DNA of 64,000 nucleotides, taken from the NCBI RefSeq assembly GCF_030009775.1, contig NZ_JASCTH010000020.1, forward strand, positions 124,001 through 188,000. Direction: 5' to 3'. The position numbers and the translations under genes are program-made. Below the pieces are notes generated by a model. It did not search any database. It was not told where the DNA came from and was given only the letters and a program-made list of their open reading frames with translations. Position 1 is the stretch's first letter. Every line of letters starts with the position of its first letter. Below are positions 8,931 through 57,800 of the stretch, piece by piece. Source of the DNA: Actinoplanes sandaracinus. Its GTDB lineage: Bacteria; Actinomycetota; Actinomycetes; Mycobacteriales; Micromonosporaceae.

Positions 8931-8941
8931 AAGGTTCCCTC

Positions 8942-9670
8942 ATGAAGCAGACTGCACTGCGGCGTGCCGCGACCGTCTCCGCCGTCGCGGCCGTCTTCCT
9001 GCTCGGCCTGGCCGGTCCGGCGGCAGCCCACGTGACGGTCAACCCGGGCAGCGCCACCCAGGGCGGCTACACGAAGGTGTCGTTCCGGGTGCCGAACGAG
9101 AGCGACACCGCGTCCACCACCAAGCTGGAGATCAACCTGCCGGTGGAGAGCCCGATCGGGTCGGTGTCGGTCAAGCCGGTGCCGGGCTGGACCGCGGCTC
9201 CCGAGAAGTCGAAGCTGACCACTCCGGTCAAGGTGCACGACAGCGAGATCACCGAGGCGGTCACGAAGATCACCTGGACCGCGGCGGCCGGCTCCGAGAT
9301 CAAACCGGGCACGTTCCAGGAGTTCGACGTCTCGCTCGGCCCGCTGCCGCAGGTCGACAAGATGGTGTTCAAGGCGCTCCAGACGTACTCCGACGGCACG
9401 ATCGTCCGCTGGATCGACGAGCCCACCACCGACGGCACCGAGCCGGAGAGCCCGGCGCCGGTCCTGAAGCTGGCCGCCGCATCGGCCGCCCCGTCCGCCG
9501 CCGCCTCCGCGCCGGCCGCCGTGGCCACCGGCGAGGAGAGCGACAGTGGCGGCAGCGGCGCAGCCTGGGGCATCGCGGGCCTGGTCGCTGGTCTGGCCGG
9601 CCTGGTCCTCGGTCTGCTCGCCTACCGCAAGGCCGCGACGCCCGCACCTGGCGCGACACCCACCGCCTGA
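8942..9670 (+). CDS. YcnI family (DUF1775) copper-binding membrane-anchored protein
   Basis: A 242-residue protein with a signal peptide cleaved before HVTVNPGSAT, leaving the N-terminal His of DUF1775 copper-binding domains. The beta-sandwich domain (to about residue 155) includes VSFRVPNES and the conserved WTAAPEK segment. A Pro/Ala/Ser-rich spacer follows, then a C-terminal TM helix (WGIAGLVAGLAGLVLGLLAY) with basic tail. YcnI proteins usually accompany CopC/CopD proteins, as here with an 11-bp gap. It is the last gene of the copper module and is followed by a strong terminator. Confidence 0.87.
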   Translation: MKQTALRRAATVSAVAAVFLLGLAGPAAAHVTVNPGSATQGGYTKVSFRVPNESDTASTTKLEINLPVESPIGSVSVKPVPGWTAAPEKSKLTTPVKVHDSEITEAVTKITWTAAAGSEIKPGTFQEFDVSLGPLPQVDKMVFKALQTYSDGTIVRWIDEPTTDGTEPESPAPVLKLAAASAAPSAAASAPAAVATGEESDSGGSGAAWGIAGLVAGLAGLVLGLLAYRKAATPAPGATPTA

Positions 9671-9744
9671 CGCGGCATCCGGCGGCGAGCCGGATGCCAG
9701 GCTGCCACCCCGCGTCGAGCCGGCTGTGCAGCTATAACGGATGC

Positions 9745-9797
9745 GGACCGCGCGCCGCACCTCTCCCACCCGGGAGAGGTGCGGCGCGCAGCGGTCC
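9745..9797. terminator. Strong bidirectional terminator after the copper operon
   Basis: A perfect 18-bp stem (9750-9767 with 9772-9789) closes a 4-nt loop, and 5 further base pairs (9745-9749 with 9793-9797) extend it after a small bulge. It lies between the convergent ends of the YcnI gene and the MmcQ-like gene, and no coding sequence overlaps it. Confidence 0.85.
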
Positions 9798-9847
9798 GAG
9801 CCGCGCGAACCGGAAGTCATAGATCATCCGCCGGCCACCCGGCCCGG

Positions 9848-10231
9848 TCACCCCTGCGCGGGCCGGTAGGCGGCCTCGACCTCGTCGGGTGCCCGCATCC
9901 GCCAGGCGTCGGTGATCAGCTCCGCCAGTCGTTCGAGTGACACCCGCTCCAGGCGCAGCATCACCAGCGGTAGCCCGTCATAGCCGGGTGTGGTGAAGAA
10001 CAAGTCCGGCTCGCCGAGCAGCAGCGCCTGCTTCTCCGCCTCGTCGCCGACGAAGAGAACGGCCACGTCCATACGGATCACGCGCGGTTTTCCGGGTAGA
10101 CGTTCCGGATATGACCACACGAACCCCTTGCCTCCGACCCGGAAGTCGAACCCGTCACTGTCGATCTCCTCGACATGCGGCAGGGCCAGAGCCAGCCGTC
10201 GTACGTCGTCCGCGTCACACACGGTCGTCAT
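9848..10231 (-). CDS. MmcQ/YjbR family DNA-binding-like protein
   Basis: A 127-residue cytosolic protein of the MmcQ/YjbR (CyaY-like fold) family. Supporting motifs are the opening DDVRRLALALPHVEE, a KGFVWSYPER segment and the late PGYDGLPLVMLRLE block, ending in the helical LAELITDAWRMRAP, all at the usual family spacing. The biochemical role is not established; the E. coli relative has a double-wing DNA-binding-like fold. The ATG at 10231 gives a full-length family member. It diverges from the TauE/SafE gene. Confidence 0.82.
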   Translation of the reverse strand: MTTVCDADDVRRLALALPHVEEIDSDGFDFRVGGKGFVWSYPERLPGKPRVIRMDVAVLFVGDEAEKQALLLGEPDLFFTTPGYDGLPLVMLRLERVSLERLAELITDAWRMRAPDEVEAAYRPAQG

Positions 10232-10269
10232 TCTGCAGCATGTCCGTCGACGGCCGTGGAATTGATGCC

Positions 10270-10298
10270 TTGCCTACTGGCTAGCTAGGCTTCTATTC
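10270..10298 (+). promoter_or_regulatory. Possible promoter of the TauE/SafE exporter gene
   Basis: A TTGCCT (-35-like, 10270-10275) and CTATTC (-10-like, 10293-10298) pair with 17-bp spacing lies about 50 bp upstream of the ATG at 10347. Between the boxes are the short inverted arms GCCTA and TAGGC (10272-10290), enclosing a CTAG-rich centre, which could be an operator. This is weak pattern evidence only. Confidence 0.3.
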
Positions 10299-10346
10299 TC
10301 CGATCCAAGAACTAGGAATTGAACCCTTCCCCCGGGCGGTCGACAC

Positions 10347-11348
10347 ATGCAGAAGCTCATCCTCCTGGCCCTGGTCGGGCTCGGCGCGCAGTTGGTCGAC
10401 GGCAGCCTGGGCATGGCCTACGGTGTGACCTCGACCACCCTGCTCCTGGCGGTGGGGACCAACCCGGCGGCCGCCTCGGCCACCGTGCACCTCGCCGAGA
10501 TCGGCACCACCCTGGTCTCCGGTCTCTCCCACTGGCGGTTCGGCAACGTTGACTGGAAGGTCGTCCTCAGGATCGGCGTTCCGGGCGCGATCGGGGCCTT
10601 CGCCGGCGCCACGTTCCTCTCCAGCATCTCCACCGCGACCGCGGCGCCGCTGATGGCGATCATCCTGCTGACGCTCGGCCTCTACGTCTTCCTCCGGTTC
10701 ACCTTCCAGGGCCTGCCCAAGGGCCAGCTCGGCAAGCCGCTGCGCAAGCGGTTCCTCACCCCGCTCGGCCTGGTCGGCGGTTTCGTCGACGCCACCGGCG
10801 GCGGTGGCTGGGGCCCGGTCGGCACGCCCGCGATCCTGGCCAGCGGCCGCCTGGAGCCGCGCAAGACGATCGGCTCGATCGACACCAGCGAGTTCCTCGT
10901 CGCCATCGCCGCCAGCCTCGGCTTCCTCTGGGGCATCGGCAGCGAGAACATCGACTACGGCTGGGTCCTCGCCCTGCTGATCGGCGGCATGATCGCCGCG
11001 CCGCTCGCGGCCTGGCTGGTCCGCCACATCCCGCCGCGGGTGCTCGGCGCCGCGGTCGGCGGCGTCATCATCCTCACCAACACCCGGTCCCTGCTGCGCA
11101 GCGACTGGATCGACGCCCCGGACGCCGTCCGCTACGTCCTCTACGGCGTCATCTACCTCGCCTGGGCCGCCGCGATCGCCTACTCGGTGGCGCAGTACCG
11201 CAAGAACGCCATCGAGGACCAGCGGATCCTCGCCGAAGCCGAAGCCGAAGCCGAAGCCGAAGCCGAAGCCGAAGCCGAAGCCGAAGCCGAAGCCGTCGCC
11301 CTCGGCAGCACCCCCGACGACAAGGACAAGGCCCCCGCCAACGCCTGA
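10347..11348 (+). CDS. TauE/SafE (TSUP) family sulfite/sulfonate exporter with Ala-Glu repeat tail
   Basis: A 333-residue membrane protein with about eight TM helices. TSUP motifs are LVDGSLGMAYGV at the N-terminus and GGFVDATGGGGWGPVGTP in the second half-repeat. Such proteins export sulfite, sulfoacetate or related sulfur anions. The cytosolic C-terminus is unusual: ten exact GCCGAA units encode (Ala-Glu)10, a strongly acidic, probably helical tail, followed by a short DDKDK stretch. The ATG at 10347 begins a standard N-terminal helix. Transcription ends at the hairpin at 11368-11397. No sulfur-metabolism gene is adjacent, so the substrate is inferred from family only. Confidence 0.85.
   Translation: MQKLILLALVGLGAQLVDGSLGMAYGVTSTTLLLAVGTNPAAASATVHLAEIGTTLVSGLSHWRFGNVDWKVVLRIGVPGAIGAFAGATFLSSISTATAAPLMAIILLTLGLYVFLRFTFQGLPKGQLGKPLRKRFLTPLGLVGGFVDATGGGGWGPVGTPAILASGRLEPRKTIGSIDTSEFLVAIAASLGFLWGIGSENIDYGWVLALLIGGMIAAPLAAWLVRHIPPRVLGAAVGGVIILTNTRSLLRSDWIDAPDAVRYVLYGVIYLAWAAAIAYSVAQYRKNAIEDQRILAEAEAEAEAEAEAEAEAEAEAVALGSTPDDKDKAPANA
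11232..11291 (+). repeat. In-frame hexanucleotide microsatellite (GCCGAA)10
   Basis: Ten perfect tandem copies of GCCGAA within the 3' part of the TauE/SafE gene encode ten Ala-Glu dipeptides. Because the unit is 6 bp, copy-number change would keep the frame and only alter tail length. Perfect identity suggests recent slippage expansion. Confidence 0.95.
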
Positions 11349-29465: not shown

Positions 29466-29593
29466 ACGCCCTCCGCCCGTGACCGTGTCCCGATGGCCGG
29501 CCCGGCCGAACCGCTCGCCGGGGCCACAACCGTTCAGGTCGGCCCGGCTCCGGCCGATGAGCAGAGTGACGCCGGACGCGGAGTGAGTGTTTA

Positions 29594-32500
29594 GTGACTG
29601 ATACAGGGCTGACCGGCCTCGAATTGGTCGACGAGCTCGGCCGGGGCGCGTTCACCATGGTCCACCGCGCCCGGCGCGGTGACCGCTGGTACGCGGTCAA
29701 ACGGCCCCTCGCCGACGCGAGCGAATATCCGGCGATCCGGACCGAGCTGAGCCGCGAGGCCGCGCTGCTGGCCTGCATCGACGACCCGGGCGTGGTCCGG
29801 GTGCACGCGGTCGGGGACCTCGACGGCGTACCCACGCTGGTGCTGGACCACCTGACCAGCGGATCGCTCGCCGACCAGCTCGGCGCCGGGGTGCTGGCCG
29901 AGAAGTGGGTCGTCGCGATGGCCGCCCGGCTGGCCCGCGGCCTGGCCGCCGCGCACCGGCTCGGCCTGGTGCACCGCGACATCAAACCGAGCAACATCAT
30001 GGTCGGCCCGGACCAGCCGGCCACCCTCATCGACTTCGGCCTGGCCCAGGTCGGGGCCGAGACCGGCGACACCGACGAGGCCGTCGGCACCTTCCTCTAC
30101 TCGTCGCCGGAACAGTCCGGCATGCTCAAGCGCCCGGTCGACGGCCGCTCCGACCTCTACTCCCTCGGCGTGGTGCTCTACGAGTGCCTGGCCGGCCGGC
30201 TGCCGTTCGAGGCCGACGACGTCGGCGAGCTGCTGCGGATGCACCTGGCCGCCCCGGTGCCCGACCTCACCGAACTGCGCCCGGACATCGACGCGAACCT
30301 GCTCGCCCTCGTGTACCGGCTCCTCGCCAAGGACCCCGACGACCGCTACCCGGACGCCCGTGCGCTCCTGGCCGACCTGCGCGACTGCCCCGGAGGCGAG
30401 GCGGCCGCGCAGCCCGCCGTCACCGGCTGGCCGCTGCGGGGCCGCGCCACCGAGGCGGAACGGCTGAGCCGCCGATGGGAGCGGGCCCGGGCCGGGCAGG
30501 GCGGCGTCGCGGTGATCCGCGGTGCGGCCGGCTCCGGCCGGACCCGGCTCGCCGAGGAGGTCGCCGCCGAGGCGTCGGCCGCCGGGCTGCCGGTGTTCTG
30601 GGCGACCTGCCGCCCCGACGAGGAGTCACCGCTGGCCGCGGCCCGGGAAGCGGTCGCCTCCTGGCGGGCCTCGGTCCGCCGGCTGTCGCCGGAACGGCGG
30701 GCGGCCGTCGACGAGCAGATCGCCGAGGCCTCCGCGACCGCCGGCGCCGGCCTGATCGCCCGGCTCTTCGGCGACCTGATCCCGGCGACGGCCGGCGAGC
30801 CCGCCCTCGGCGGCGACGAGCACGTGCTCGGCGCCGGAGTGGTGTTCCTCGGCGAAGTCGCCACCCGGACCGGTGGGCTGTTGCTCGTCGTCGACGACGC
30901 CCAGCACCTCGACTCCGGCACCCGCCAGTTGCTGGAGAAACTCGCCGCCGAGATCGCCGGGCTGCCTGTCCTGATCGTGCTCACCGCCCCGGACGACGCC
31001 GCCGACCCGGCCGCCGGCATGGAGGGCGTCGGCGCGCTCACGGTGACCTGCGCCCCGCTTCCGGCGTCCGCCGTCGCCGACGTGATCGCCTCCCGCCTGC
31101 CCGGCGCCGAGGTCACCGTGGAACTGGTCCGGCACGTCATCGCGCGAACCGACGGAACCCCGCTCGCGGTCGTCAGCTACCTGTTGCGGCTCCTCGACGC
31201 CGGCCTGCTCAGCCCGATCTGGGGCACCTGGCGACTGGACATCCACGGCGCCGACGCGCTGCCCCCGGCCGCCGACGTCCGCGACCTGATCGCGGCCCGG
31301 CTCACCGGGCTGCCCGAGGACATCCTGAACTGCCTGACCGTGGCCGCCGCGGCCGGCATCCGGTTCCGGCCGGAGACCCTGTTCGAGCTCGACGAGCCCG
31401 ACAAGGTGCTCGGCGCGCTCGGCGCCGCGGCCGAGCGGCACGTGCTGGAACCCCGCCCCGGCGGCTGGTACGCCTTCGTCCACCCCCAGTTGCGAGACAT
31501 GCTCCTGGACCGGGTCGACGCGGCCGGGCTCCGGCGACTGCACGCCGACCTGGCCGGGGCGCTGGAGCGGCAGCCGGAGGAACTACGCGACGAGGGGCAC
31601 GCGTACGCCGTCGCCCGTCACCACCGCCGCGCCGGCGACGCCGCCGCACCCGAGGACCGCCGCCGCAGCGCCGCGATCGCCGGCCGCCGGGCACTGGCCG
31701 ACCAGTCCCCGGCCGAGGCGATCGAATACCTGACCGACGCCGTCGACGGCGACCCGGCGCCCGGCACCGACCTGCTGCACGCGCTGGCCCAGGCCTATCT
31801 GCGGGCCGGCCGGTTCGGCGAGGTGGACGCCGTGCTGGACCGGGCCCTCGCCGGCGAACCGGATCGCCTGTGGCGGGCCCGGCTGCTCACCACCCGCATC
31901 GAGCTGTTCCACACCATCTGGGACGACGACCGGGCCCTGGAGACGACCCGGTCGGCGCTGGCCGAACTGCGCCGGCCGCTGCCCGGGGCGGGGCTGCTCG
32001 CCCTGATCCAGACCCTGTTCATCGCGATGGCGGGCGGGCTCGTACGGCGTACCAAAGTGGGTTATGGAACCGCGCGGAGCCGCGACCGGGAGAAGCAGGC
32101 CGCGCTCGCCGCCGTCCTCGACGCCGGCGGCTATGCCGCGGCGGTCGGCCTGCGGCTGCGGGAGGCCGGCACCCTGGCCCTGCGCGCCCTCTACGCGGTG
32201 AACCGGCTCGGCCCCTGCCCGGAGTACGTCCGCGTCTACGCCCTGATCGGCTATGTCGCCGCGGTGATCAAACTGCGCGGCACCAGCGACCGCTGCCTGC
32301 GGCGCGCTGGCGACGTGGCCGCGAAACTGGGCGACCCGGGCCTGGGCGCCTATGTGGAGTGGATGCACGGCGTCGCCCTGCTGTTCAGCGGCGCCGACGA
32401 CGGCAGCATCTGGGAGAAGACGATCACCCGGAACGCCCGCTGGTACGGGCCCGCCCAGGTGATCCCCGGCTACGCCGCCCTCGGCCTGCGCTTCCTGCTG

Positions 32501-34816
32501 CGCGGATACGTCGACGAGGCGGCCCGCGAGTACGAGCGCGGCATCCAGCGCCTCGCCGACCAGCAGCAGGCGCTCGGCACCTCCATCGGCATGCTCAGCG
32601 TGATGATCCCGGCCGGGCAGAGCCGCTTCGGTGACGCCGCCGCCGCCCTCAAACGGCTCCGCGAGGCCTTCCCGCCCGGCACCGGCACCCGGGTGCAGCG
32701 GGCCAACATGCTCACCGCCGCCGCCTGCGTGCTGATCGAGCAGGGTGAGGTGGGCCAGCCGCTGGACGACGTGTTCGACGAGTTCCACGCGCTCAAGCTG
32801 CGCCGGAGTGAACTGATGCCGCAGCACCGCTGGATCTTCGTCTACCAGGCGCAGGCGCGGCTCATCCAGTTCCGGTACGCCGCCGACGCCGACCGCCCGG
32901 CCCGGCTCGCCGTGGCCCGCAAGGCGATCCGCGCACTGGGCCGGGTCGGCGGCACCCCGCTGCTGCGGGGCGTCTATCTGACCACCAAGGCCTCCCTGCA
33001 CCTGGCGGCCGGCGAGCCGGAGCGCTGCATCAAGCTCGCCGACGAGGCCGAACGGCGGCTGCGCAAGGTCGACGCGCCGTTCATCCAGTACGAGGCGTTC
33101 CGCATCCGGGCCCGGGCCATGCGTGCCATGGGCATGGCCAACGAAGCCGACCGGCAGGCCCGGTTCGCTCTCGGGATGGCCAACTTCCACGGCTGGGAGC
33201 AGCGGCGGCGGCAGACCCGTACCGAATTCGGCGTCGACGAGGGCGCCGGCACGCACCGCCGGACCGTCGCCGAACGCCGCCCCGCCTCCGGCCGCAACCG
33301 CCACCTCGACGCGTTGCAGCAGGTCGGCACGGCCGCCGCGACCATCCTCGACCCGCAGCAGCTGGCCAGCGTGGCCCTCGACGAGATGCTGCGCATCCTC
33401 GGCGCCGAACGGGCCATCTTCTTCCTCGTCGACGAGAGCGGCGACCCGGTCCGCTACGCCGGCCGCGACGTCTCCGGCGAACTCGAGGAGACCAGCGAGT
33501 ACGGCGCCAGCCTCGTCCGCCGCGTCGCCGAGACCGGTGAGCCGCTCGTCGTCACCGGCACCGAACAGGGCGCCGCCCTCGGCTCCCGCAGCGCCGTCGT
33601 GCACGGGCTGCGCAGCATCCTGATCGCGCCCGTCCAGTTCAAGGGCCGCCTCGTCGCGGTGGTCTACCTCGACAGCCGGCTCGCCCGCGGCATCTTCACC
33701 GACGACGACGTCGCCGTCCTCACCGCCGTGAGCAGCCACGTCGCGGTGTCGCTGGAGACCGCCCGGGCCGCCCAGCTGCACTCGGCGGTGCAGGCGGCCC
33801 GGCAGCAGCAGGCGCTCGCCGAGATGCTGCGGGCCAGCCTCGCCGAACTCAGCGCCATCCTGGAACCGGACCGCCTGCTGCGCCAGCTCTGCGCCACCCT
33901 GCAGGTGCAGCTCGGCGCCACGGCCGGCTGCCTGGTCAGCCGGGAGGGGGAGGTCCTCGCCGTCGTCGGTGCCACGCCGCAGGAGATCATCGGCACCCAG
34001 GTCCAGTTGCCCGCTCCTTCGGCTTCCCCGGCCTCCGGTTCTTCCGTGGCCTCCGCTGCCGGCGGCGCGGCGCAGTCGTCCGGTTCCGGTGAGCTGGGCG
34101 CGCCCGACCTGCTCGACCCGGCCGAGACCGCGGGGGTACGCGAAAGGCTGCTCGCCGGAGCGCCGACCGCGCTCGCCGTCCCCCTGACCGGGCGCGACGG
34201 CCCGGTCGGCCTGGTCCTGCTCGGCGGCGGCGGGCTCGACGACACCAGCCGTCAGGTGGCGGCGGCGCTGGCCACCCAGGGCATGGCGGCGTACGAGAAC
34301 GCCCGCCTCTTCAGCCGTGTCCAGGAACTGGCGACCACCGACGAACTGACCGGTCAGCACAACCGGCGTCACTTCTACGCGATCGCCGGCGCGCTGGTCC
34401 AGGCGGCGGCTCGCAACGGGCGTCAGCTGGCCGCCGTCATGCTCGACATCGACAAGTTCAAGTCGGTCAACGACACGTACGGCCATGGGGTGGGCGACGA
34501 GGTCATCCGGACCGTGGCCGCCCGGATCCGCGGCTGCCTGCGCCATTCCGACGTCCTGGGCCGTTACGGTGGTGAGGAGTTCGCCGCGGTCCTGCCCGAC
34601 CACGACGGTCACGCCGCCGACCTCGCCGAACGCGTCCGCCTGGCCGTCTCCGCCGAGCCGATCCCCACCCAGGCGGGCCCGCTCCCGATCACCATCAGCG
34701 TCGGCCTGACCAGCCTCACCCCCGGCGACACCAGCCTCGACGAGCTTCTGGCCCGAGCCGACCACGCTCTCTACCGCGCCAAGGAGTCCGGCCGCAACCG
34801 CGTGATGATCGACTGA
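29594..34816 (+). CDS. Giant multidomain signalling protein: Ser/Thr kinase-AAA-like ATPase-TPR-GAF-GAF-GGDEF
   Basis: A 1740-residue cytosolic protein. Residues ~10-265 are a Hanks-type kinase: glycine loop GRGAFTMV, Lys in YAVKRP, catalytic HRDIKPSN (Asp ~129), and DFG at ~147. Then comes a STAND/AAA-like ATPase with Walker A GAAGSGRT (Arg in place of Lys) near residue 305 and a Walker B-like LLLVVDDAQHLD near 430. A helical TPR-type region spans ~640-1230. GAF1 is ~1234-1390, GAF2 ~1415-1560 with an Ala/Ser-rich insert, and GGDEF ~1577-1738. The cyclase has an intact GGEEF (~1659) and an RxxD I-site (RHSD) five residues before it. It can plausibly make cyclic di-GMP under kinase and GAF control. 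GTG start at 29594. Confidence 0.88.
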   Translation: MTDTGLTGLELVDELGRGAFTMVHRARRGDRWYAVKRPLADASEYPAIRTELSREAALLACIDDPGVVRVHAVGDLDGVPTLVLDHLTSGSLADQLGAGVLAEKWVVAMAARLARGLAAAHRLGLVHRDIKPSNIMVGPDQPATLIDFGLAQVGAETGDTDEAVGTFLYSSPEQSGMLKRPVDGRSDLYSLGVVLYECLAGRLPFEADDVGELLRMHLAAPVPDLTELRPDIDANLLALVYRLLAKDPDDRYPDARALLADLRDCPGGEAAAQPAVTGWPLRGRATEAERLSRRWERARAGQGGVAVIRGAAGSGRTRLAEEVAAEASAAGLPVFWATCRPDEESPLAAAREAVASWRASVRRLSPERRAAVDEQIAEASATAGAGLIARLFGDLIPATAGEPALGGDEHVLGAGVVFLGEVATRTGGLLLVVDDAQHLDSGTRQLLEKLAAEIAGLPVLIVLTAPDDAADPAAGMEGVGALTVTCAPLPASAVADVIASRLPGAEVTVELVRHVIARTDGTPLAVVSYLLRLLDAGLLSPIWGTWRLDIHGADALPPAADVRDLIAARLTGLPEDILNCLTVAAAAGIRFRPETLFELDEPDKVLGALGAAAERHVLEPRPGGWYAFVHPQLRDMLLDRVDAAGLRRLHADLAGALERQPEELRDEGHAYAVARHHRRAGDAAAPEDRRRSAAIAGRRALADQSPAEAIEYLTDAVDGDPAPGTDLLHALAQAYLRAGRFGEVDAVLDRALAGEPDRLWRARLLTTRIELFHTIWDDDRALETTRSALAELRRPLPGAGLLALIQTLFIAMAGGLVRRTKVGYGTARSRDREKQAALAAVLDAGGYAAAVGLRLREAGTLALRALYAVNRLGPCPEYVRVYALIGYVAAVIKLRGTSDRCLRRAGDVAAKLGDPGLGAYVEWMHGVALLFSGADDGSIWEKTITRNARWYGPAQVIPGYAALGLRFLLRGYVDEAAREYERGIQRLADQQQALGTSIGMLSVMIPAGQSRFGDAAAALKRLREAFPPGTGTRVQRANMLTAAACVLIEQGEVGQPLDDVFDEFHALKLRRSELMPQHRWIFVYQAQARLIQFRYAADADRPARLAVARKAIRALGRVGGTPLLRGVYLTTKASLHLAAGEPERCIKLADEAERRLRKVDAPFIQYEAFRIRARAMRAMGMANEADRQARFALGMANFHGWEQRRRQTRTEFGVDEGAGTHRRTVAERRPASGRNRHLDALQQVGTAAATILDPQQLASVALDEMLRILGAERAIFFLVDESGDPVRYAGRDVSGELEETSEYGASLVRRVAETGEPLVVTGTEQGAALGSRSAVVHGLRSILIAPVQFKGRLVAVVYLDSRLARGIFTDDDVAVLTAVSSHVAVSLETARAAQLHSAVQAARQQQALAEMLRASLAELSAILEPDRLLRQLCATLQVQLGATAGCLVSREGEVLAVVGATPQEIIGTQVQLPAPSASPASGSSVASAAGGAAQSSGSGELGAPDLLDPAETAGVRERLLAGAPTALAVPLTGRDGPVGLVLLGGGGLDDTSRQVAAALATQGMAAYENARLFSRVQELATTDELTGQHNRRHFYAIAGALVQAAARNGRQLAAVMLDIDKFKSVNDTYGHGVGDEVIRTVAARIRGCLRHSDVLGRYGGEEFAAVLPDHDGHAADLAERVRLAVSAEPIPTQAGPLPITISVGLTSLTPGDTSLDELLARADHALYRAKESGRNRVMID

Positions 34817-35885: not shown

Positions 35886-36080
35886 TGACCTGGCCATATG
35901 CTCTCAGGCACAATGCAATCTTGCTCTACCTGGCACATCCATAGCCTGAGCTGGACCCAGGCGTCCGCCACCGTCCACAGGCGTCCGGTGCGGTCACCGG
36001 CGACTGTCACTCAGTTAGTCACCCGGATACTTCCTGTGGCATAGAAGTGTTCGATACTGTAAACCCCGCCATTCGATACA

Positions 36081-36587
36081 TCAGCTTGGTGCGCTCATTG
36101 GAGAAGGCTGAAGTTTATTGCACTCCTCGACGGTGGTACACCGAATCAGCACGTTCCGCACACCGGGAAGGGCTTTAATGTCGTCTTCCAGGGCGGAGTC
36201 CCTGACCTGACGGATCGCCGCTTGATCCAGCATCGTCACCACGAATCCCGCTGGCAGTAAATTAGGATCGATGTCCGAAAAAGCTGTGGGTTCGGACACC
36301 TCCCGCCTAAAGCGGTCACGAAATGCCGCGCCGTCCTCGTAGACGACGCTGCTCACCCCTGGTATAGCCTGCAGCCTCGCTTGCACGTTTGTCCTATGCT
36401 CATCCGAGGCATTATCGAGCATAAAGACGGTGAAATAGGCCCTTTCCTTCAGAATGCTTTCGAGGCGCTCTTCTTCATCATTCTGAAAGAGGCCGCAGGC
36501 CGCCAAACTTACTGTTTGCAGCAGGGCAACGATGATTATCGCAAATCGACGCACGCGGCGGAGGATACCAGGGATGGTGGTTGGCAT
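36081..36587 (-). CDS. Lipoprotein resembling an isolated FtsX extracellular domain
   Basis: A 168-residue lipoprotein: a signal with lipobox VSLAAC (Cys ~31), then a domain with the pattern of FtsX extracytoplasmic loops. This includes the ML-x-N-ASDEHRTNVQARLQAIPGV stretch, VVYEDGAAFRDRFRR, the PNLLPAGFVVTMLD block (the LPASFxVxL motif of FtsX) and a final PGVRNVLI. FtsX itself has four TM helices, which are absent here, so this is a stand-alone ectodomain tethered by lipid. In mycobacteria the FtsX ectodomain activates RipC; a decoy or regulator of such hydrolases is possible but unproven. Its GC content is well below the window average. It has no close operon partner. Confidence 0.6.
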   Translation of the reverse strand: MPTTIPGILRRVRRFAIIIVALLQTVSLAACGLFQNDEEERLESILKERAYFTVFMLDNASDEHRTNVQARLQAIPGVSSVVYEDGAAFRDRFRREVSEPTAFSDIDPNLLPAGFVVTMLDQAAIRQVRDSALEDDIKALPGVRNVLIRCTTVEECNKLQPSPMSAPS

Positions 36588-36621
36588 GCCCGTTAACCCT
36601 GACCGCTAGGGCCGCAGAGGC

Positions 36622-36924
36622 TCACGACTCAAGGGCGGCCGCGTGCGGCCGTCGCATGCGACGCGTTAGCGCCCTTGATCGTGAGTGCGGCCCGGACACA
36701 CTGCGCGCCGCCGCCCAGGCACCGACGGCCGCAACGCGCGTTGCACCCCGAACGCGGGCAGCTCGGCCGCGTCGCCCAGGTCCCCGCAGCGGTCGGCCGC
36801 CGGCCACCTTATAGTCGCGGCCGGTCTGTTCATTCTCGTGGTCGAGGAGAGACCTGAGCATCTTCTGGATTTCGGCGGCCAGGCGGACGTTGCCATGCGC
36901 GATGTCGAGAATCTCGTCAGGCAT
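36622..36924 (-). CDS. Small hypothetical protein at the end of the WXG-type operon (possible frameshift)
   Basis: A 100-residue protein starting MPDEILDIAHGNVRLAAEIQ, with a convincing helical N-terminal half to about GRDYKVAGG (residue 42). After that the frame becomes Arg/Ala-rich and unprotein-like, while another frame reads GDLGDAAELPAFGVQRALR, so a frameshift or sequencing slip is likely near 36800. The ATG overlaps the stop of the upstream WXG-type gene by 8 bp, so the two are coupled. No family is recognised. Confidence 0.4.
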   Translation of the reverse strand: MPDEILDIAHGNVRLAAEIQKMLRSLLDHENEQTGRDYKVAGGRPLRGPGRRGRAARVRGATRVAAVGAWAAARSVSGPHSRSRALTRRMRRPHAAALES

Positions 36925-38017
36925 GAGCACCCATCCCGGTCAGCGGGTGGTCGTAGCCCGCTTTTCCGCCGAAGGTGGGCAGTTTGACCGTGTCGAGGTC
37001 GCTGAGTGTGCGGTCTAGCACTGCACGAAAGCCCTTCACCGCTGAATCCGCATAGGCGAGGTACTTCGTGACCTGCGCCCACATAGCGAGGATGTTGGCC
37101 GCTTCCGCGGCTGTGACGCCGTACCCCACCGCCCCGCCTATGCCTGATGCGGCAGTGGCGGTGCCGGCCGCCGCTGCGATGCCAGCGATGAGGGCTGCAT
37201 CGCACATACCTTTGATGAGACCGCCGATAGCGTCGCCGGCCGCCCAAACGGCGTCGGCCATAGTCCGGTACGCAGCGCCCATCTCCGCCAGTGGCGCGCG
37301 AAGCTGGTCGATCGAGGTGGCGAAGTCGGTGAAGTATCGATAGGCAGCGTCTCCGGCATTACCTTGCCAGACTTGCTGTAGCGAGGTGGCCCCCGACTGG
37401 ACGTTGAAGGCGAGATCATGCACAGCGGCCGCCGCATTGGTCAAGACCGGCTGCATCTGGGCGAAGACCTCCCAGTCGCCGAAGATCTTCTTCTGCACCT
37501 CTTCGACCGGGTCGATGCCGAGGATGATGTCGAAGCCCTTCATCGTCCAGGCGGTCGGGCTGATGTAATCCATCCATCCCAGTTTGTTGACGGGGGTGTC
37601 GGGCTCCGGGTCGGGCTTCTTGAGGAGCTGTTCGGGTGCCCGCGAATCGCTGAAGGGCAGTGGTGGGCACACGGCGATCTCGTGCTCGATCGCCGTCGGG
37701 CACCATTCCCCGCTCGCTGGCAGCGCGCGGTCGAGGTTGGTCGCCGCCGCAAGGTCTGTGCTCCGGTAGTACTCCGCCGCCGAGCGAAGCTCCGGTACCG
37801 AGTAGTCGAGCATGCACGTCACGCGGTTGAAGGCGCCCTGGATCAGCGCGACGGCGTGCTGGTTTCCCTCATTGGCGACGCCGATCAGCTCGCCACCGGT
37901 GCCGTCCATGGCGTTCTTGGTGATGTACTCGCTGATGGCCAGGGAGTCGTCACGCGCCCGACCTATCTGATCCGCGTACGACACCAGCGCTTGTGGCTCC
38001 ACATCCAAGCTGCTCAC
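36917..38017 (-). CDS. WXG100-like (type VII secretion-related) hypothetical protein
   Basis: A 366-residue protein with an N-terminal helical ESX-type region (ALVSYADQIGRARDDS...) and a central helical segment carrying the WxG turn (LQQVWQGNAGDAAYRYF, about residue 230). A Gly/Ala-rich helical C-terminus follows. This is the pattern of EspC/WXG-type substrates of type VII secretion. No toxin motif is seen at the C-terminus. The GTG start at 38017 overlaps the stop of the upstream membrane-protein gene (GTGA), and its stop overlaps the next small gene, so this is a three-gene operon. Longer readings upstream to 38239 pass through the other gene in a different frame and are excluded. Confidence 0.6.
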   Translation of the reverse strand: MSSLDVEPQALVSYADQIGRARDDSLAISEYITKNAMDGTGGELIGVANEGNQHAVALIQGAFNRVTCMLDYSVPELRSAAEYYRSTDLAAATNLDRALPASGEWCPTAIEHEIAVCPPLPFSDSRAPEQLLKKPDPEPDTPVNKLGWMDYISPTAWTMKGFDIILGIDPVEEVQKKIFGDWEVFAQMQPVLTNAAAAVHDLAFNVQSGATSLQQVWQGNAGDAAYRYFTDFATSIDQLRAPLAEMGAAYRTMADAVWAAGDAIGGLIKGMCDAALIAGIAAAAGTATAASGIGGAVGYGVTAAEAANILAMWAQVTKYLAYADSAVKGFRAVLDRTLSDLDTVKLPTFGGKAGYDHPLTGMGAHA

Positions 38018-38373
38018 GAACCACTTCCGACGACGACCGCCAGTCCCGCGAGACCCAGGCCGGTAAAGGAGACCGCCGCAAGAAGAAGCCCGAGCACCAA
38101 CTTCGGGTAAGGCCGGCTGAAGTAGACCCCCGCCCCGCAGACACCGCCCACCGCGCACGCCAACGCTGGCACAAGCCGCGCGCCGTCGCTCTCCCCCCAC
38201 GAAACGGACAGCACGGCGAAGATGCCGATGAAGACACACACGCTTGCGATCGTGGAGCGCAGGTTCCAGTACGCCGTCCGCTGGAGCCTCTCCACCGACT
38301 CCTGATACCTCGCCGCGACTGCTTCGCGTTCCTCAGGCGTGCCACGTCGATTCCGACCGCTCTTCTGTGCCAT
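38014..38373 (-). CDS. Small membrane protein, first gene of the WXG-type operon
   Basis: A 119-residue protein with a basic, charged N-terminal helix (RNRRGTPEEREAVAARYQES) and three to four TM segments (TIASVCVFIGIFAVLSVSW; LVPALACAVGGVCGAGVYF; LVLGLLLAAVSFTGLGLAGLA). It overlaps the downstream WXG-like gene by 4 bp. Possible roles are anchoring or helping export of the WXG-like protein; that is inferred from coupling alone. Confidence 0.65.
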   Translation of the reverse strand: MAQKSGRNRRGTPEEREAVAARYQESVERLQRTAYWNLRSTIASVCVFIGIFAVLSVSWGESDGARLVPALACAVGGVCGAGVYFSRPYPKLVLGLLLAAVSFTGLGLAGLAVVVGSGS

Positions 38374-39045
38374 GACACAGACCGTAGCGATCGACGAAAT
38401 TGATCGCTGTCCCGAGGGCGCTGGTTGTCATGCCCTGCAAACTCTCAGACCGCGGTGAACCGGCAAGCCGGACAAAGCGTTATGCCGATAAGCGACAGCC
38501 GTTCTCATCTGTGGTTAGGCGGGCTCTCAGGCAACCAGCAGGGGCGTCGGACCTCGTAGGACACCCGCTTTGATGTGAGGTTGTGGGAACCTGTCGGATT
38601 GTCTACTCAATGCCCAGGTTCCGCTTCCGGAGGGCGGCCATTAGCGTCAGTCTATGGCCCGTCGCTCTTCCAAGGTCGCTGGGCGTGCGATCGGCTTTAT
38701 GCGGGCCGTCCTGGCCGCTCTCTTTTGGATGTCCGACCAGCGTCGTCTTGCGATTTCGACGCGCTGGCCATGTTCGTGCCGTACCTAGCCTTCGTCGCCC
38801 CATTTAAGTGTGGCGGCTACACCCCCCCGCCAGCGGCAGGCGTGCCGCAACATTGGCCTCGGCCTGCTTATCGGGTGCTATCGCCATCGGTTCGATCGCC
38901 TCGGGCGAATCTTCGACCGCGATCGGACGGCGGCCCGGTACCCGGTATCCGGTACCCAGGCCAGTCTGTCCGGAATAGAGAGTGCAGAGCATGCGCCGTC
39001 CGGATGGACGCGCAGAACGGTCACTACTTCGAGAACGGAAACGAA
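38374..39045. other. 672-bp intergenic region without a supported gene
   Basis: This gap between the divergent WXG-type operon and the ricin-lectin gene has AT-richer composition than its neighbours and no credible coding pattern on either strand. A 44-codon ORF (38654-38788) has no SD and no recognisable product. A short repeat of GGTAYCC units occurs near 38936-38960. It probably holds the promoters of the two flanking transcripts. Confidence 0.6.
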
Positions 39046-39669
39046 ATGGTCAGAACATTGCGAACCAGAACCCGACGAGCCGCCGCGACGATCATTGCAG
39101 GGCTGCTGCTGGCGACCGGCCAGGGGATCGTCGACGCGCGTTCGTCAGACGCGAGCGCTCCGTTGTCCGAGTACTGCTTCGAGGACGCCGACTGGTACAT
39201 ACTTAGGAACTACAAGTCGAGGAAGGTCCTGCAGCCCCGCGACAGTGTCACCCACAACGGCGCCAAGATTGTCCAGTACCCCGAGCGCCCCGAGTCGTTG
39301 TCGGGCTACCAGTACTGGTGCCGGATCAGCGACGGTGACTACGAGAGCTTCGAGAACGTGCAGGCCGAGAAAAACCTCGGCATCGACGGCGGCAGCAACG
39401 CGAACGGCGCCGCGGCCATCCAGGCCTGGCCGACCGGCGCGGTGAACCAGGACTGGCTCAAGCGCTCGACCGGCTACCCGGCGGGCGTCGTCGCTCTGGT
39501 CAACCGCAAGAGCGGCCTGTGCCTCGGTATCTCCGGCGGAAGCCTCAACAACGGGGCGCAAGCCGCCCAGTTCTTCTGCGATGGCTCGCCCAACCAGGGC
39601 TGGGAGATCGTCTACCGGCTGGGACCGGTGCGGGGAAGCGTCAATCGCGACTTGACACGTGGTTCGTGA
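39046..39669 (+). CDS. Secreted ricin-type beta-trefoil lectin protein
   Basis: A 207-residue secreted protein: an N-terminal signal (RRAAATIIAGLLLATGQG) cleaved near ARS, then a beta-trefoil lectin of the RICIN_14/RicinB type. The QxW-type motifs are visible: GYQYWCRI, AVNQDWLKR and the final SPNQGWEIVYRLG. Gly/Asn turns lie in the repeats, such as NLGIDGGSNANGAAAIQAW and LCLGISGGSLNNGAQAAQF. It likely binds galactose- or xylose-containing glycans. The start is ATG 39046, in line with the signal peptide; the frame upstream to 38575 shows no protein-like sequence. It belongs to the island-like low-GC segment. Confidence 0.85.
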   Translation: MVRTLRTRTRRAAATIIAGLLLATGQGIVDARSSDASAPLSEYCFEDADWYILRNYKSRKVLQPRDSVTHNGAKIVQYPERPESLSGYQYWCRISDGDYESFENVQAEKNLGIDGGSNANGAAAIQAWPTGAVNQDWLKRSTGYPAGVVALVNRKSGLCLGISGGSLNNGAQAAQFFCDGSPNQGWEIVYRLGPVRGSVNRDLTRGS

Positions 39670-39769
39670 TGACGACGAGTCGGTGTCGGGGTTGGCGGCG
39701 TGCACCCTGTGAGGGCTGAGCAGCGTCTGCATGGCCGCGAGCGAGTGGGTTCGCCCGTAATGTCACGTC

Positions 39770-40054
39770 GTGAAGATCTTCTTGCTCTGGCATGTTCGGC
39801 ACGCGCCCTTTGTCGATGGCAGTCCCACGCGACACCGCGACGAGAGCGGAGAACTCGACTGGGACGAAGAGGAGGGCGACGATCTCAAGATTCTTGGCGC
39901 GTACTCGACCGAGCGGAAGGCCGAGGAGCGGATCGCGCGGGCGCGGCTGCTGCCCGGCTTCCGGGATGAACCGGACTGCTTCCTCATCGATCAGTACACG
40001 GTTGATGCGGACAGGTGGACCGACGGGTTCGTCACCGTCGCGGCCAGCGAGTAG
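39770..40054 (+). CDS. DUF7336-like small protein
   Basis: A 94-residue protein with the pattern HxxE/D...DDLKILGAYSTERKAEERIARARLL, then LPGFRDEPDCFLIDQYTVD and the final DRWTDGFV. This matches small proteins annotated with DUF7336, whose role is unknown. GTG start at 39770. Acidic residues dominate the middle (DWDEEEGDD). It sits between the lectin gene and the IS481 remnant. Confidence 0.7.
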   Translation: MKIFLLWHVRHAPFVDGSPTRHRDESGELDWDEEEGDDLKILGAYSTERKAEERIARARLLPGFRDEPDCFLIDQYTVDADRWTDGFVTVAASE

Positions 40055-53069: not shown

Positions 53070-54800
53070 GTGAGCGATGGGAGCCTCCGATCGCGACCGG
53101 AGTTCTGGCCGGTCACGCTGCTGAGCATCGCGCTAATCGCGGTTCTCGCCGGATGGTCTGGATTCACTTATGTCGATCGAACCCGTAATGATCCGCGGTG
53201 CTCCGAGAAGACCACGCTGAGAGTCGCCGTGGCGCCGAGCATCGCCCCGCCGGTGCGCGAGATCGCCGCCCGCCTCACTTCCGGCGACGCCTGCCTCGCC
53301 TGGTTGGTCGAGGCACGGGAATCGGCGGACGTGCTGCGCGCCGTCGCGCGTACCGCCCCGGATGCCGCTGTCACCGCCTCCGCATCGGCGTCGGCGAGCA
53401 GTTCCGGAGAGAAATCCGCCAGCGCGAGCACCGCCGCCGGCGAGACGGCCGCCCTGGCCCCTGACGTCTGGCTGCCCGAGTCGACGCTCTGGCTGCGCCG
53501 GGCCCGCGCGGCCGGCGCCTTCCAGGTGCCCACGGAGGGCATCTCGGTGGCCACCAGCCCGGTCGTGCTCGCCCTCGACGAGGGCACCGCCACCAGGCTG
53601 CCCAGCGCCGATCTCAGCTGGCCCCGCCTGGTCGGCGCCGCGAAACCACCGGTCCCGGTCGCGCTGCCGGACCCGGCGACCAGCCCGCTCGGCTTCGGGT
53701 CCCTGGTCGGGATCCGGAACATCGCCAAGGGCGACGCCCCCGGCACGGCGGGGATCATGCGGCGGCTCTCGCCGCACACCCTCTCGACCGCCGGTGAGGC
53801 CGTCCCGGACCCGGTCGGGCCGGGCGGCGGCGAGACCGCGGTGATCAGCACCGAGCAGCAGGTCCTGTTCGCCGCCGACGGCGGGAAGAAGCAGGTCGCG
53901 GTCTACCCGCAGACGGCGGTACCCGGGCCCGACTACCCGTACGCCGTGCTCACCACCGAGGACGAGCCCCGCGAGTACGCCGCCGGGCTGCTGCGAGCGA
54001 TCCTCGACGGCACCGGCGTCTCGGCGATCACCGGCCACGGCCTGCGCACCCCGGCCGGCGGCCCCCCGGCCGGCATCACGAACGCCACCAAGGTCCGCAC
54101 CACCGACTACCCGCCCGCCGCGCTGCCGCCGGAGACCGACGTCGAGGCCCTGCTCAACGCCTGGGGCGGGGTGCATATCAGCGCCCGGATGCTGGCCGTC
54201 TTCGACATCTCCGGCTCGATGGCCGCGGTGGTGCCCGGCGCGACCGAGTCCCGCATGGAGGCCACCATCAAGGCCGCACAGGACGGCGTGAAACTGCTGC
54301 TGCCCACCACCGAGCTGGGCGTCTGGGAGTACTCCACCGACCTGGACGGCTCCCGGGACTATCGGGAGGTGGTGCCGGTCGGGCCGATCGGCCCACGCCG
54401 TGACGAGATCATCCGGGAGGTCGGCCGGATGAAGGTCGACCCCAACGGCCAGACCGGCCTCTACGACACCGCGCTGGCCGCGTACCGCGACGCCACCCGC
54501 AACTGGACGGCCGGCCGGATCAACATGGTGCTGATCCTGACCGACGGCACCGACGACAACTCCAGCGGCATCAGCCGTGCCGAACTGCTGGGGAAACTGG
54601 GCGAACTCGCCGACCGGAAACGTCCGGTGCCGATCCTGTTCATCGGTGTCGGCCCGGATATCGACGCCGCCGAACTGAACCAGATCGCCAAGGCCACCGG
54701 CGGCCGGGTCGCTCTCACCGAGAAGCCGTCCGGAATCCGGCAGATCTTCTACACCGCGCTGGCCGAGTTCAGCTGCCTGCCCCCGGAGTGCCGCCGATGA
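53070..54800 (+). CDS. Solute-binding/VWA-domain membrane protein
   Basis: A 576-residue protein. An N-terminal TM anchor (WPVTLLSIALIAVLAGWSGF) is followed by a region like a bacterial solute-binding fold (residues ~45-330) with Ala/Ser-rich inserts. A C-terminal von Willebrand A domain follows: its MIDAS is FDISGSM at about residue 379 (DxSxS), with TGLYDTALAAY supplying the Thr and LILTDGTDDNS the final Asp. The VWA domain suggests metal-dependent protein or ligand binding outside the cell. Its TGA overlaps the AftD ATG (ATGA), so they are coupled, as in actinobacterial loci where this type of protein accompanies arabinan genes. GTG start at 53070. Confidence 0.84.
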   Translation: MSDGSLRSRPEFWPVTLLSIALIAVLAGWSGFTYVDRTRNDPRCSEKTTLRVAVAPSIAPPVREIAARLTSGDACLAWLVEARESADVLRAVARTAPDAAVTASASASASSSGEKSASASTAAGETAALAPDVWLPESTLWLRRARAAGAFQVPTEGISVATSPVVLALDEGTATRLPSADLSWPRLVGAAKPPVPVALPDPATSPLGFGSLVGIRNIAKGDAPGTAGIMRRLSPHTLSTAGEAVPDPVGPGGGETAVISTEQQVLFAADGGKKQVAVYPQTAVPGPDYPYAVLTTEDEPREYAAGLLRAILDGTGVSAITGHGLRTPAGGPPAGITNATKVRTTDYPPAALPPETDVEALLNAWGGVHISARMLAVFDISGSMAAVVPGATESRMEATIKAAQDGVKLLLPTTELGVWEYSTDLDGSRDYREVVPVGPIGPRRDEIIREVGRMKVDPNGQTGLYDTALAAYRDATRNWTAGRINMVLILTDGTDDNSSGISRAELLGKLGELADRKRPVPILFIGVGPDIDAAELNQIAKATGGRVALTEKPSGIRQIFYTALAEFSCLPPECRR

Positions 54801-57800
54801 CCGTCACCCTCCGGGAGCGGACGCCCACCGTGACCACCGAACCGACCAGTCACCGCCGCCACCTGCTCGCCCTGGGCGGCGCGCTGCTGCTCGTCGTGCT
54901 CGCCTTCGTGCAGCGCCCGGGCCGCATCACCTTCGACACCAAGCTCGACATGGCCGAGGACCCGATCGGCTTCATGTCCCGGGCCCTGCACCTGTGGAAC
55001 CCCTGGTCCACCTCGGGCGAGCTCCAGCAGCAGGCGTACGGCTACCTGTTCCCGATGGGCCCGTTCTTCGCCGCCGGCGACCTCCTCGGCATGCCGCCGT
55101 GGATCACCCAGCGGATCTGGTGCGCGCTGCTGCTCTGCGCCGCCTACTACGGCACCCTGCTGCTGGCCCGCGCGCTGCGGATCGGCAACGACACCGGCCG
55201 GATCGTGGGCGCGCTCGCCTACGCGCTGGCACCCCGGATGCTCACCGAAATCGGGCCGCTCTCCTCCGAGATGCTGCCGGTGGTGTTCCTGCCGTGGGTG
55301 ATGCTGCCCCTGGTGCGGGCCGGCCGGATCGGCTCGCCCCGCCGCGCCGCCGCGCTCTCCGCCCTGGCCGCGCTCTTCATGGGCGGCATCAACGCGGCCG
55401 CCGTGGTGATGGCCCTGGTGCTGCCGGGTCTGTGGCTGATCACCCGCCGCTGGGACCGGCGCCTGGCCACGCTGATCTTCTGGTGGGGCGTCTGCATCCT
55501 CGGGACGACGCTGTGGTGGATCGTCCCGCTGCTGCTGTTCGGCGAGTACAGCCTGCCCTTCCTGGACTTCATCGAGTCGTCCGGCACGACCACCGCGGTG
55601 ACCTCGCTGTTCCAGGCGACCCGCGGCACCAACCAGTGGGTCGGCTACATCGTCCAGGGCGACCCGTGGTGGCCCGCCGGCTGGACGCTGGTCGACAACC
55701 CGGCGCTGATGGCCGCGACCGCGCTGGTCGCCGCCGTCGGCCTGGCCGGCCTGGCGATGCGTGGGCTGCCCGAACGGCGCTTCCTGATCATCGGCGCGCT
55801 GACCGGTCTCACCCTGCTGACCGTGGGCTACGTCGGCACCATGGACAGCCCCTTCGCCCCGCTGGCGCGCGAACTGCTGGACGGGCCGCTCGCCCCGCTG
55901 CGCAACGTGCACAAGTTCGAGCCGGTGCTGCGGCTGCCGGTCGCGCTGGGCGTCGCCTACGCGGCGAGCCACGTGCTGACCTGGCGGCGGCTGGGCCTGC
56001 GGATCCCGGCGAGCCCGCTGGTCGCGGCCCTCCTGATCGTCGCGGCGGCGCCCGCCGGGATGACGCTGCTGCGCCCGGGGCCGGGCTGGGCCGAGATGCC
56101 GTCGTACTGGCGCGACGCGACCGGCTGGCTCGCCGACCAGGACGCGCAGGCCCGCACCCTCGTCGTCCCGGGTTCCGGGTTCGCCCAGCACACCTGGGGC
56201 CGGACGGTCGACGAGCCGATGCAGCCGCTGGCCGGGGCGCCCTGGTCCACCCGTAACCAGATCCCGCTCGGCTCCGAGGGCAACATCCGGGTGATGGACA
56301 CCGTCGAGGCGGTGCTGGAACAGGGCCGCGGCTCACCCGCCCTGGCCGAGTTCCTGGCCCGTTCCGGCTACAAGTATCTGCTGGTCCGGCACGACCTGGA
56401 CCGGTCCGCCTCGGGAGCCCCGCCGATCGCGGTGGTGCGCCAGGCGATCGCAGGCTCACCCGGCCTGGAACCGGCCGCCTCGTTCGGCCCGATGGTCGGC
56501 ACCGGTGGCTCAGACCCGAGCCCGGTCGACGCGTCCGTGTCGGTGCCGGCGATCGAGATCTTCGCGGTCACCCGTACCGTCCCGCAGATCTCCGCCACCG
56601 CGATCGCCGGCGTGCCGGTGGTCGGCGGCGGACCGGAATCCCTGCTGGGCGTCCTGGAACAGGGTCTTCTCCACGGTGAACAGCCGACCGTGCTGGCCGG
56701 CGAGACGAACGGCACCCTCGGCCTGGCCGCCGGCGAGTCGCAGGCGCGGCCGATCGTCACCGACGGCCTGCGCCGCCGGGAACTCAACATCGGGCGGGTC
56801 CGCGACAACGTCAGCCAGACCCTGACCAGGTCCGAGAAGACCAGACAGGGCCGGGTCCGCAGTGACCTGCTGCCGTTCGAGGGCAAGGGCCACCAGACGG
56901 TCGCCGAGTACCAGGGCATCCGCGCGGTCCAGGCGTCCAGCAGCGCGAGCTACGCCGACTCGATCGGCGCGACCGACCCGTCCAACATGCCGTTCGCGGC
57001 CCTGGACGGCGACCCGGCGACGGCCTGGCGTTCCGACCCGTTCCAGGCCGGCGCCGGTCAGTGGATCAATGTGGAGCTGGGCAGCGCGAAGCGGGTCACC
57101 GCGGTGACCGTGGACTTCTCCTCCGACCTGCGCGTCGCCGCCCCGGTCTCGGTGGTCCGGCTCACCACCGACCAGGGCATCGTGGACCGCGCGGTGCCGG
57201 AGACCCCCGGCCCGCACACCCTCTCCACCCTGCCCGGGCTCACCACCGCCGTCCGCGTGACGGTGCTCGCCCTGCAGGGCGGCTACAAGGGCGCGGTCGC
57301 TCTGCGTGAGCTGGGCATCCCCGGTCTCGACGCCGAACGGGGCCTGCGCGCCCCCGACGACATCAAGACCACCACCCCGCCGGCGTACGCGTTCGAACGC
57401 GACGCGCAGCAGCGTGGCGCCTGCTTCCCGGTGTCCCCGGGGACCTCCGCCGGGATCCGGTGCGACCAGTTCCTGGCCCGTCAGGGTGAGGAGCCGCTCG
57501 GACTGGACCGGTACTTCACCACCCCGGTGGACGCCGCCTACGACCTGCGGCTGACCGCCCACACCCGGCCCGGCGCGAGCGTCCCGCTCCAGCTGCCGGT
57601 CGCCTTCTCGGCGTCGTCGGTGCTGGCCGGTGACGTGACGGTCGGCGCACATGCGGCGGCCGACGGCAACCCGGCCACCGCCTGGCTGGCCGAACCGAAC
57701 GACGACACCGCCACCCTCACCCTGACCTGGACGGGGAAGCGCAGGATCGACCGGGTCCGGGTGGTCGCGCCGGAGGCGGCGTCGGCGGGCCGGCCCACCA

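Follow-up and report, generated by a model that had tools for sequence, protein, structure and literature searches.

Here, we describe a gene in a 64,000-nucleotide stretch of the Actinoplanes sandaracinus genome (contig NZ_JASCTH010000020.1, positions 124,001 to 188,000; hereafter the window, in which positions are counted) whose product carries, in a single chain, an N-terminal Hanks-type Ser/Thr kinase, a STAND-like nucleotide-binding domain, a TPR superhelix, two GAF domains and a C-terminal GGDEF diguanylate cyclase domain (Table 1). The gene is one open reading frame (ORF) with no internal stops, and its third-position GC content, 0.94, is like that of the window's other probable genes. 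A first-pass annotation of this DNA had read the same uninterrupted 1740-residue frame and had named a frameshift splitting the ORF as a possible fault; because the frame is intact in 25 orthologues from public species records (53-85% identity), we reject a frameshift or assembly artefact. The gene is not plasmid cargo either, as 15 plasmid records match it at E 1e-30 but none covers 80% of the query, the eight matches listed being to the GGDEF end alone or to the GGDEF end and a little before it.

Table 1. Features of the kinase-cyclase gene and its upstream region, in window positions
Feature	Residues	Position	Strand	Basis or remark
Promoter-like element, FliA/WhiG type		29533..29558	+	TTCA-N16-GCCGAT; ends 35 bases ahead of start codon
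GGAG, likely ribosome-binding site		29580..29583	+	sequence; 10 nucleotides ahead of start codon
Kinase-STAND-TPR-GAF-GAF-GGDEF gene	1740 in all	29594..34816	+	GTG start
Hanks-type Ser/Thr kinase domain	10-262	29621..30379	+	Pfam; K36, D129, D147 present
AAA_16 / STAND-like nucleotide-binding domain	281-462	30434..30979	+	Pfam, model, Foldseek
Walker A motif GAAGSGRT, Arg316 for Lys	310-317	30521..30544	+	sequence
TPR superhelix	about 669-1212	31598..33229	+	
GAF domain 1	1252-1388	33347..33757	+	Pfam, model
Long linking helix	about 1370-1420	33701..33853	+	model
GAF domain 2, divergent	about 1425-1544	33866..34225	+	model; GAF_2 below cut-off
Signalling helix ahead of cyclase	about 1550-1581	34241..34336	+	model
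GGDEF diguanylate cyclase domain (GGEEF)	1580-1736	34331..34801	+	Pfam
RHSD inhibitory site and GGEEF signature	1650-1663	34541..34582	+	sequence

A Pfam search recovered the succession of domains that the first-pass annotation had named, namely the kinase (Pkinase, residues 11-252, 5.6e-35), the nucleotide-binding domain (AAA_16, residues 281-462, 2.9e-17; 64.1 bits against a cut-off of 32.6), the TPRs (TPR_19, residues 700-760, 8.1e-6; 26.5 bits against a cut-off of 25), a first GAF domain (GAF_2, residues 1252-1388, 2.4e-20), which is also matched in all 76 of the relatives' tails scanned, and the cyclase (GGDEF, residues 1580-1736, 1.1e-44). The second GAF domain of that annotation fared less simply, staying below the Pfam cut-off (GAF_2, E 0.0022; 18.7 bits against 28.6) yet appearing clearly in the AlphaFold2 model as an alpha/beta domain flanked by two long helices, at about residues 1425-1544. 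By Pfam, the model and Foldseek together, the middle of the protein has the STAND layout, in which an AAA_16/STAND domain is followed by a repeat-type sensor, here built of TPRs.

Both putative enzymes keep their catalytic residues. The kinase has the Gly-rich loop, the catalytic Lys (K36) and the Asp residues of the HRD (D129) and DFG (D147) motifs, while the cyclase has the metal-binding Asp (D1618), a GG[DE]EF motif that reads GGEEF and an RxxD inhibitory site (I-site; residues 1650-1653), much as first annotated. Among 111 full-length members of the family described below, D129 and D147 are kept in all, K36 in 108, and the metal Asp, the Glu of GGEEF and the Asp of GHxxGD in 110 each, the exception being locus L164; with the catalytic residues so nearly invariant, we reject the degenerate kinase or GGDEF domain that the first-pass annotation had held out as the result that would overturn it. 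The window protein shares its I-site with every one of the 26 close orthologues aligned, and in the activation segment of the kinase T166 (Thr or Ser) is kept in 111/111 members.

The change of Lys to Arg in the Walker A motif, also seen in the first pass, is real, and because of it we call the domain STAND-like rather than an active STAND ATPase. It is not a private mutation, since each of the 25 aligned orthologues in which the motif is covered has Arg. Among the 111 members the position holds Arg in 46, Lys in 64 and Thr in 1; Arg is fixed in the clade of the window protein, which in the drawn tree comprises 40 rows and a basal Lys row, and the distant paralogues mostly have Lys. On a FastTree tree built without the kinase and ATPase columns, in which several long branches were flagged, the Lys/Arg state changes at least five times. 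Within the same genome, among the best 30 of 110 AAA_16 matches, 25 Walker A motifs could be read and three of these have Arg, the window protein included. Altered nucleotide hydrolysis would be a plausible consequence.

The protein belongs to a receptor family that is widespread in a few actinobacterial families. In a scan of species genomes, with relatives taken from the best 80 matches, long relatives occur at 28 loci in Actinoplanes, Paractinoplanes, Planosporangium and Dactylosporangium. The relative is a single unbroken ORF at 25 of these, is truncated by the end of the contig at L041, has a broken frame at L045 and has no middle part at L046; the other loci match mainly by the GGDEF or GAF-GGDEF end. 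Searching with the middle region alone found relatives in at least 77 of 300 Micromonosporaceae genomes and 7 of 44 genera, with one match in 45 of the carriers and two to at least five in the other 32; these counts of carriers and copies are lower bounds, as only the best candidates were scored in each genome (five in this family sample, three in a class sample and up to seven in a phylum sample). Of 79 usable loci from part of the family-sample list, 76 encode kinase and GGDEF within a single ORF, the exceptions being two frame-broken loci (L144 and L150) and L164, where HisKA-HATPase-receiver replaces GGDEF. The class sample holds relatives in at least 14 of 394 genomes, from Micromonosporaceae and two other families (f19 and f20), and at 14 loci from the 13 other genomes of this sample both domains share one ORF in 12 and are cut by a contig end in 2. 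Across the 198 genomes of the phylum sample the middle region was found only in the window's genome, by a search that fusions with an unrelated middle would escape. Altogether, kinase and GGDEF stand in one ORF at 113 of the 121 loci examined whole (four of which repeat another locus; L100-L119 and L201-L208 hold partial genes and are excluded), while at the remaining eight the frame is broken, the gene is partial, a contig end intervenes or, once, the output has been exchanged; 110 of 111 full-length sequences have a C-terminal GGDEF. The survey of genomes for this domain order that the first-pass annotation had proposed thus uncovers a family, and its view that actinobacterial cyclases normally go without a protein kinase fails for this lineage, with relatives in 77/300 family genomes.

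Two individual loci depart from the common form. At L164:2960-8098 (-) lies the family member with the exchanged output, and at the second locus of Actinoplanes aureus (L046) the start of the kinase adjoins the GAF-GGDEF end, by deletion or through an assembly fault.

A promoter-like element of the kind expected in a flagellar-sigma (FliA/WhiG) regulon stands ahead of the window gene, is enriched across its family and recurs ahead of flagellin genes. The window's copy is its sole TTCA-type match, which alone is not significant (chance would give 0.40 on the two strands together); nine close orthologues have the same element, TTCA-N16-GCCGA[AT], at a nearly identical place. We compared 112 distinct upstream regions of 250 bases each, whose position was set from the homologue of residue 1; in a gene with a longer N-terminus the true upstream region could therefore be missed. 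In this set [CT]TCA-N15-17-GCCGA[AT] occurs in 40 (19 of them CTCA), whereas 100 dinucleotide shuffles of the same regions gave 0.28 matches on average and at most 2, and permuted -10 cores gave a mean of 0.21. Spacers of 15, 16 and 17 bases account for 7, 31 and 2 regions, respectively, other lengths from 8 to 27 giving 0 or 1. On the reverse strand of these regions there are 10 matches, and upstream of 257 other ORFs at the orthologue loci there are 5, two of which belong to divergent chemoreceptor genes (L037 and L043). By group, the element is found in the window, in 10/21 regions from named species, in 27/78 from other family genomes and in 2/2 from f19, and its presence changes at least 17 times on the tree. 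Of the two Flagellin_N matches in the window's genome, one has the element ahead of it, as do 11 of 20 flagellin genes drawn from other genomes. A single match carries little weight, because the whole genome holds 258 of CTCA type and 138 of TTCA type (396 in total; 96 and 31, respectively, when the pattern is reversed); the 66-kb flagellar contig end has 3, near the genome average. Passages in PMC8325347 describe WhiG-like flagellar sigma factors as directing transcription of flagellar and pilus genes in Actinoplanes, and suggest that such a factor directs genes for enzymes of cyclic dimeric guanosine monophosphate (c-di-GMP) in Rubrobacter.

The family also co-occurs with flagellin. Flagellin_N is matched in 76 of the 77 carriers (all but G052) and in 18 of 223 non-carriers, presumably of the same 300 Micromonosporaceae genomes, one of the 18 lying only just at the limit (G042); Fisher's test gives 2e-52 by genome, ignoring kinship, and 4e-4 by genus (6/7 carrier genera against 5/37 others). 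In f19, both carriers of the class sample have flagellin and the promoter-like element. The f20 loci L211-L222 are kinase-GGDEF members in genomes in which flagellin was not detected.

The neighbourhood of the gene varies, and no neighbour is common to all orthologue loci compared. In the window, a gene of metallo-beta-lactamase fold lies upstream and a LysM-M15 peptidase gene downstream. A GGDEF-EAL gene stands directly upstream in five orthologues (L026, identified by Pfam, and L022, L023, L029 and L042, by 57-78% similarity) and overlaps the start of the fusion gene by four bases in L023, L026 and L042, while in the window only a short stretch resembling its 3' end remains; the block at 29466-29593, whose frame ends DEQSDAGRGVSV*, is a possible relict of that end, although it also contains the promoter-like element and the ribosome-binding site, so that its conservation may be regulatory. 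A serine dehydratase adjoins the fusion gene at L030, L044 and L047. At L033, L035, L037 and L043, the upstream region is shared with a divergently read chemoreceptor (MCP) gene, towards which the flagellar-like elements there are oriented. Near the fusion gene of Paractinoplanes rishiriensis, L030:1496-6346 (+) is a 1616-residue ORF with weak NACHT/STAND matches, that to NACHT being below the cut-off.

Elsewhere in the window's genome, which has 44 EAL matches, L120:3573-8741 (-) encodes an HstK-like kinase-AAA_16-GAF-HisKA-HATPase protein directly downstream of a GGDEF gene (8837-10405, -) whose open frame bears a flagellar-like element of CTCA type at its 5' end; the pair is perhaps a split counterpart of the fusion. 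The window itself holds a second flagellar-like element, CTCA-N15-GCCGAT at 3195-3219, about 225 bases before the ORF at 3445-4224 and within what chance alone would give. It further contains, at 54788-59755, a 1655-residue frame with an AftD-type arabinofuranosyltransferase (GT-C_AftD, CBM_AftD) and a C-terminal methyltransferase domain and, at 36001-40000, a region of lower GC content (0.63-0.64) with zero ORFs passing the codon-position filter.

On balance, we think it rather probable that the protein serves zoosporic actinobacteria as a stage-specific receptor that makes c-di-GMP, that the kinase sets a STAND-TPR switch within it, and that many genes of this kind are read by a flagellar sigma factor. 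The N-terminal kinase would most likely phosphorylate the protein itself or a partner and thereby set the switch, which the STAND-like domain would form together with a TPR sensor arm; the two GAF domains, joined by long helices, would pass the state of the switch to the C-terminal cyclase, which would act as a dimer and be shut off by its own product at the I-site. GGDEF enzymes in general are known to work as dimers and to be inhibited by their product. The idea, already put forward in the first-pass annotation, of a single chain coupling kinase, ATPase and cyclase stands. In flagellated, zoosporic species, many such genes, that of the window included, would be read from a flagellar-type promoter, so that the c-di-GMP input may be made in the sporangium or zoospore stage; the likeness of the element to that of flagellin genes hints at a role in the swimming-spore stage. 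The protein is probably cytosolic.

Several observations weigh against this proposal. Kinship confounds the association with flagellin, one genus supplying 65 of the 77 carriers, and Flagellin_N may also catch hook-filament proteins. Just 3 of the 14 class-sample carriers have flagellin; none was detected in the 11 carriers of f20, nor is the element present in any of 10 upstream regions of that family. We therefore reject a strict dependence on flagella and conclude that the receptor is not a flagellar part; its promoter seems to have been recruited in lineages that have flagella. The element is missing from 72 of the 112 upstream regions, including those of all nine Paractinoplanes orthologues, and from 9 of the 20 sampled flagellin genes, and the window's copy is of the TTCA rather than the CTCA type. 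The motif was also framed after the window's upstream alignment had been seen, aided by a known consensus, for which reason the distant paralogues and the flagellin genes are its fair test. Within the protein, 27 of 111 full-length members have no RxxD I-site, and apart from T166 no Thr or Ser near it in the activation segment is kept throughout the 111; set beside the activating pair of PknB, this single conserved position does not support a PknB-like activation. A hydrophobic stretch in the TPR part (about residues 795-818; best 19-residue mean 2.04) makes membrane contact conceivable.

The same architecture could be read in other ways. Kinase and cyclase might be two independent outputs of one STAND-TPR sensor, neither controlling the other, such that signal binding would switch on both the phosphorylation of an outside substrate and the synthesis of c-di-GMP. 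The placement of the sensor between the two enzymes, the about equally strict conservation of their catalytic sites and the exchange at L164 of the C-terminal output with the kinase retained all speak for this arrangement, which we regard as distinctly less probable though a serious competitor; that no member examined has sensor and cyclase without the kinase, frame-broken and contig-cut loci aside, fits either model. Were the GGDEF part instead mainly a sensor that binds c-di-GMP at its I-site and controls the kinase, the RxxD motif in the window protein and all its aligned close orthologues would find a ready explanation, but the active site is kept in 110/111 members while the I-site is absent from 27/111, the opposite of what a binding-only role predicts, and we consider this very unlikely. 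A defence role, as an anti-phage or NLR-like receptor, is suggested by the resemblance of kinase plus STAND-TPR to defence kinases and STAND sensors, to which the STAND-TPR layout is common, and by matches to kinase models of 32 PADLOC families (PD-T4-6 up to 223 bits); the 25 of these matches listed are all confined to the kinase or to kinase and ATPase together, none extending past residue 431, as any Hanks kinase would be expected to show, and the flagellar-like elements and signalling neighbours (MCP, GGDEF-EAL) of some orthologues point away from defence, so that we reject a defence kinase and give the wider idea hardly any credence.

A further doubt concerns the element, which might be a by-product of GC-rich composition or a conserved coding remnant and not a sigma site. 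Its position within or beside the 3' end of the GGDEF-EAL gene in five orthologues, the choice of the exact motif after the alignment had been seen and its 396 matches genome-wide would all suit such an origin. Shuffles that preserve composition nevertheless yield almost no matches in the 112 regions, the spacer is sharply 16, and the element recurs in distant paralogues and ahead of many flagellin genes, and for us this origin is improbable.

Fusions of this type have been known since 2005, when the domain listing and short comment of Krupa and Srinivasan (PMC1262709) included an 1826-residue protein of Clostridium thermocellum with a kinase, six TPRs and GGDEF. Compared by description only, this protein, from another phylum, resembles that of the window in its N-terminal Hanks kinase, TPR-rich middle, C-terminal GGDEF and similar length, and the window protein has the same kinase, TPR, GGDEF order. 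Passages of PMC1262709 and PMC2176072 likewise report dual kinases that combine GAF with histidine kinase parts; the cyanobacterial HstK type (kinase-GAF-HisKA, as described in PMC2176072) also places kinase and GAF before an enzymatic output, but that output is a histidine kinase, which L164 and L120 do have, whereas Pfam finds no C-terminal HisKA/HATPase in the window protein. The TOMM kinase/cyclase fusion (TIGR03903) shares with it a kinase, an ATPase middle (match at 278-716) and a nucleotide cyclase; membership is rejected by a score of 180.4 against a cut-off of 705.75, and no class III cyclase is found by Pfam. The best Foldseek E-value is to 6mfv_A, a STAND protein with TPRs, with TM-scores of only 0.26/0.35 over the whole model; these STAND-TPR proteins share the ATPase fold followed by a TPR superhelix, from which the window protein differs by the Walker A Arg of its clade and by the added kinase and GAF-GGDEF. 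The Idiomarina phytochrome cyclase (5llw) has the same order of GAF, long helix and GGDEF, with a phytochrome as input in place of kinase and STAND-TPR. What is new is the conserved actinobacterial family with GGDEF output, its clade-fixed Walker A Arg and its flagellar-like promoter element.

Passages in PMC10746217 describe c-di-GMP enzymes as unusually numerous in zoospore-forming actinobacteria, with an upsurge of GGDEF genes, and actinobacterial c-di-GMP studies as centred on non-motile species. The receptor, conserved and with one match in 45 of 77 carriers, has a promoter, kinase and cyclase that are open to testing, in a group that includes Actinoplanes missouriensis, a species with genetics. 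It offers a clean case in which to ask whether a Hanks kinase controls c-di-GMP synthesis within one chain and, in proteins that are otherwise alike, lets naturally occurring Arg-type STAND switches be compared with Lys-type ones. We suggest, tentatively and as something we think less likely than the receptor role itself, that the family was drawn repeatedly into the zoosporic flagellar sigma regulon and that the switch of the Arg clade has lost normal ATP hydrolysis, being set by phosphorylation instead of by the turnover of ATP. If the repeated recruitment is true, sporangia or zoospores would have gained their own dedicated c-di-GMP input, with a protein kinase as its gate.
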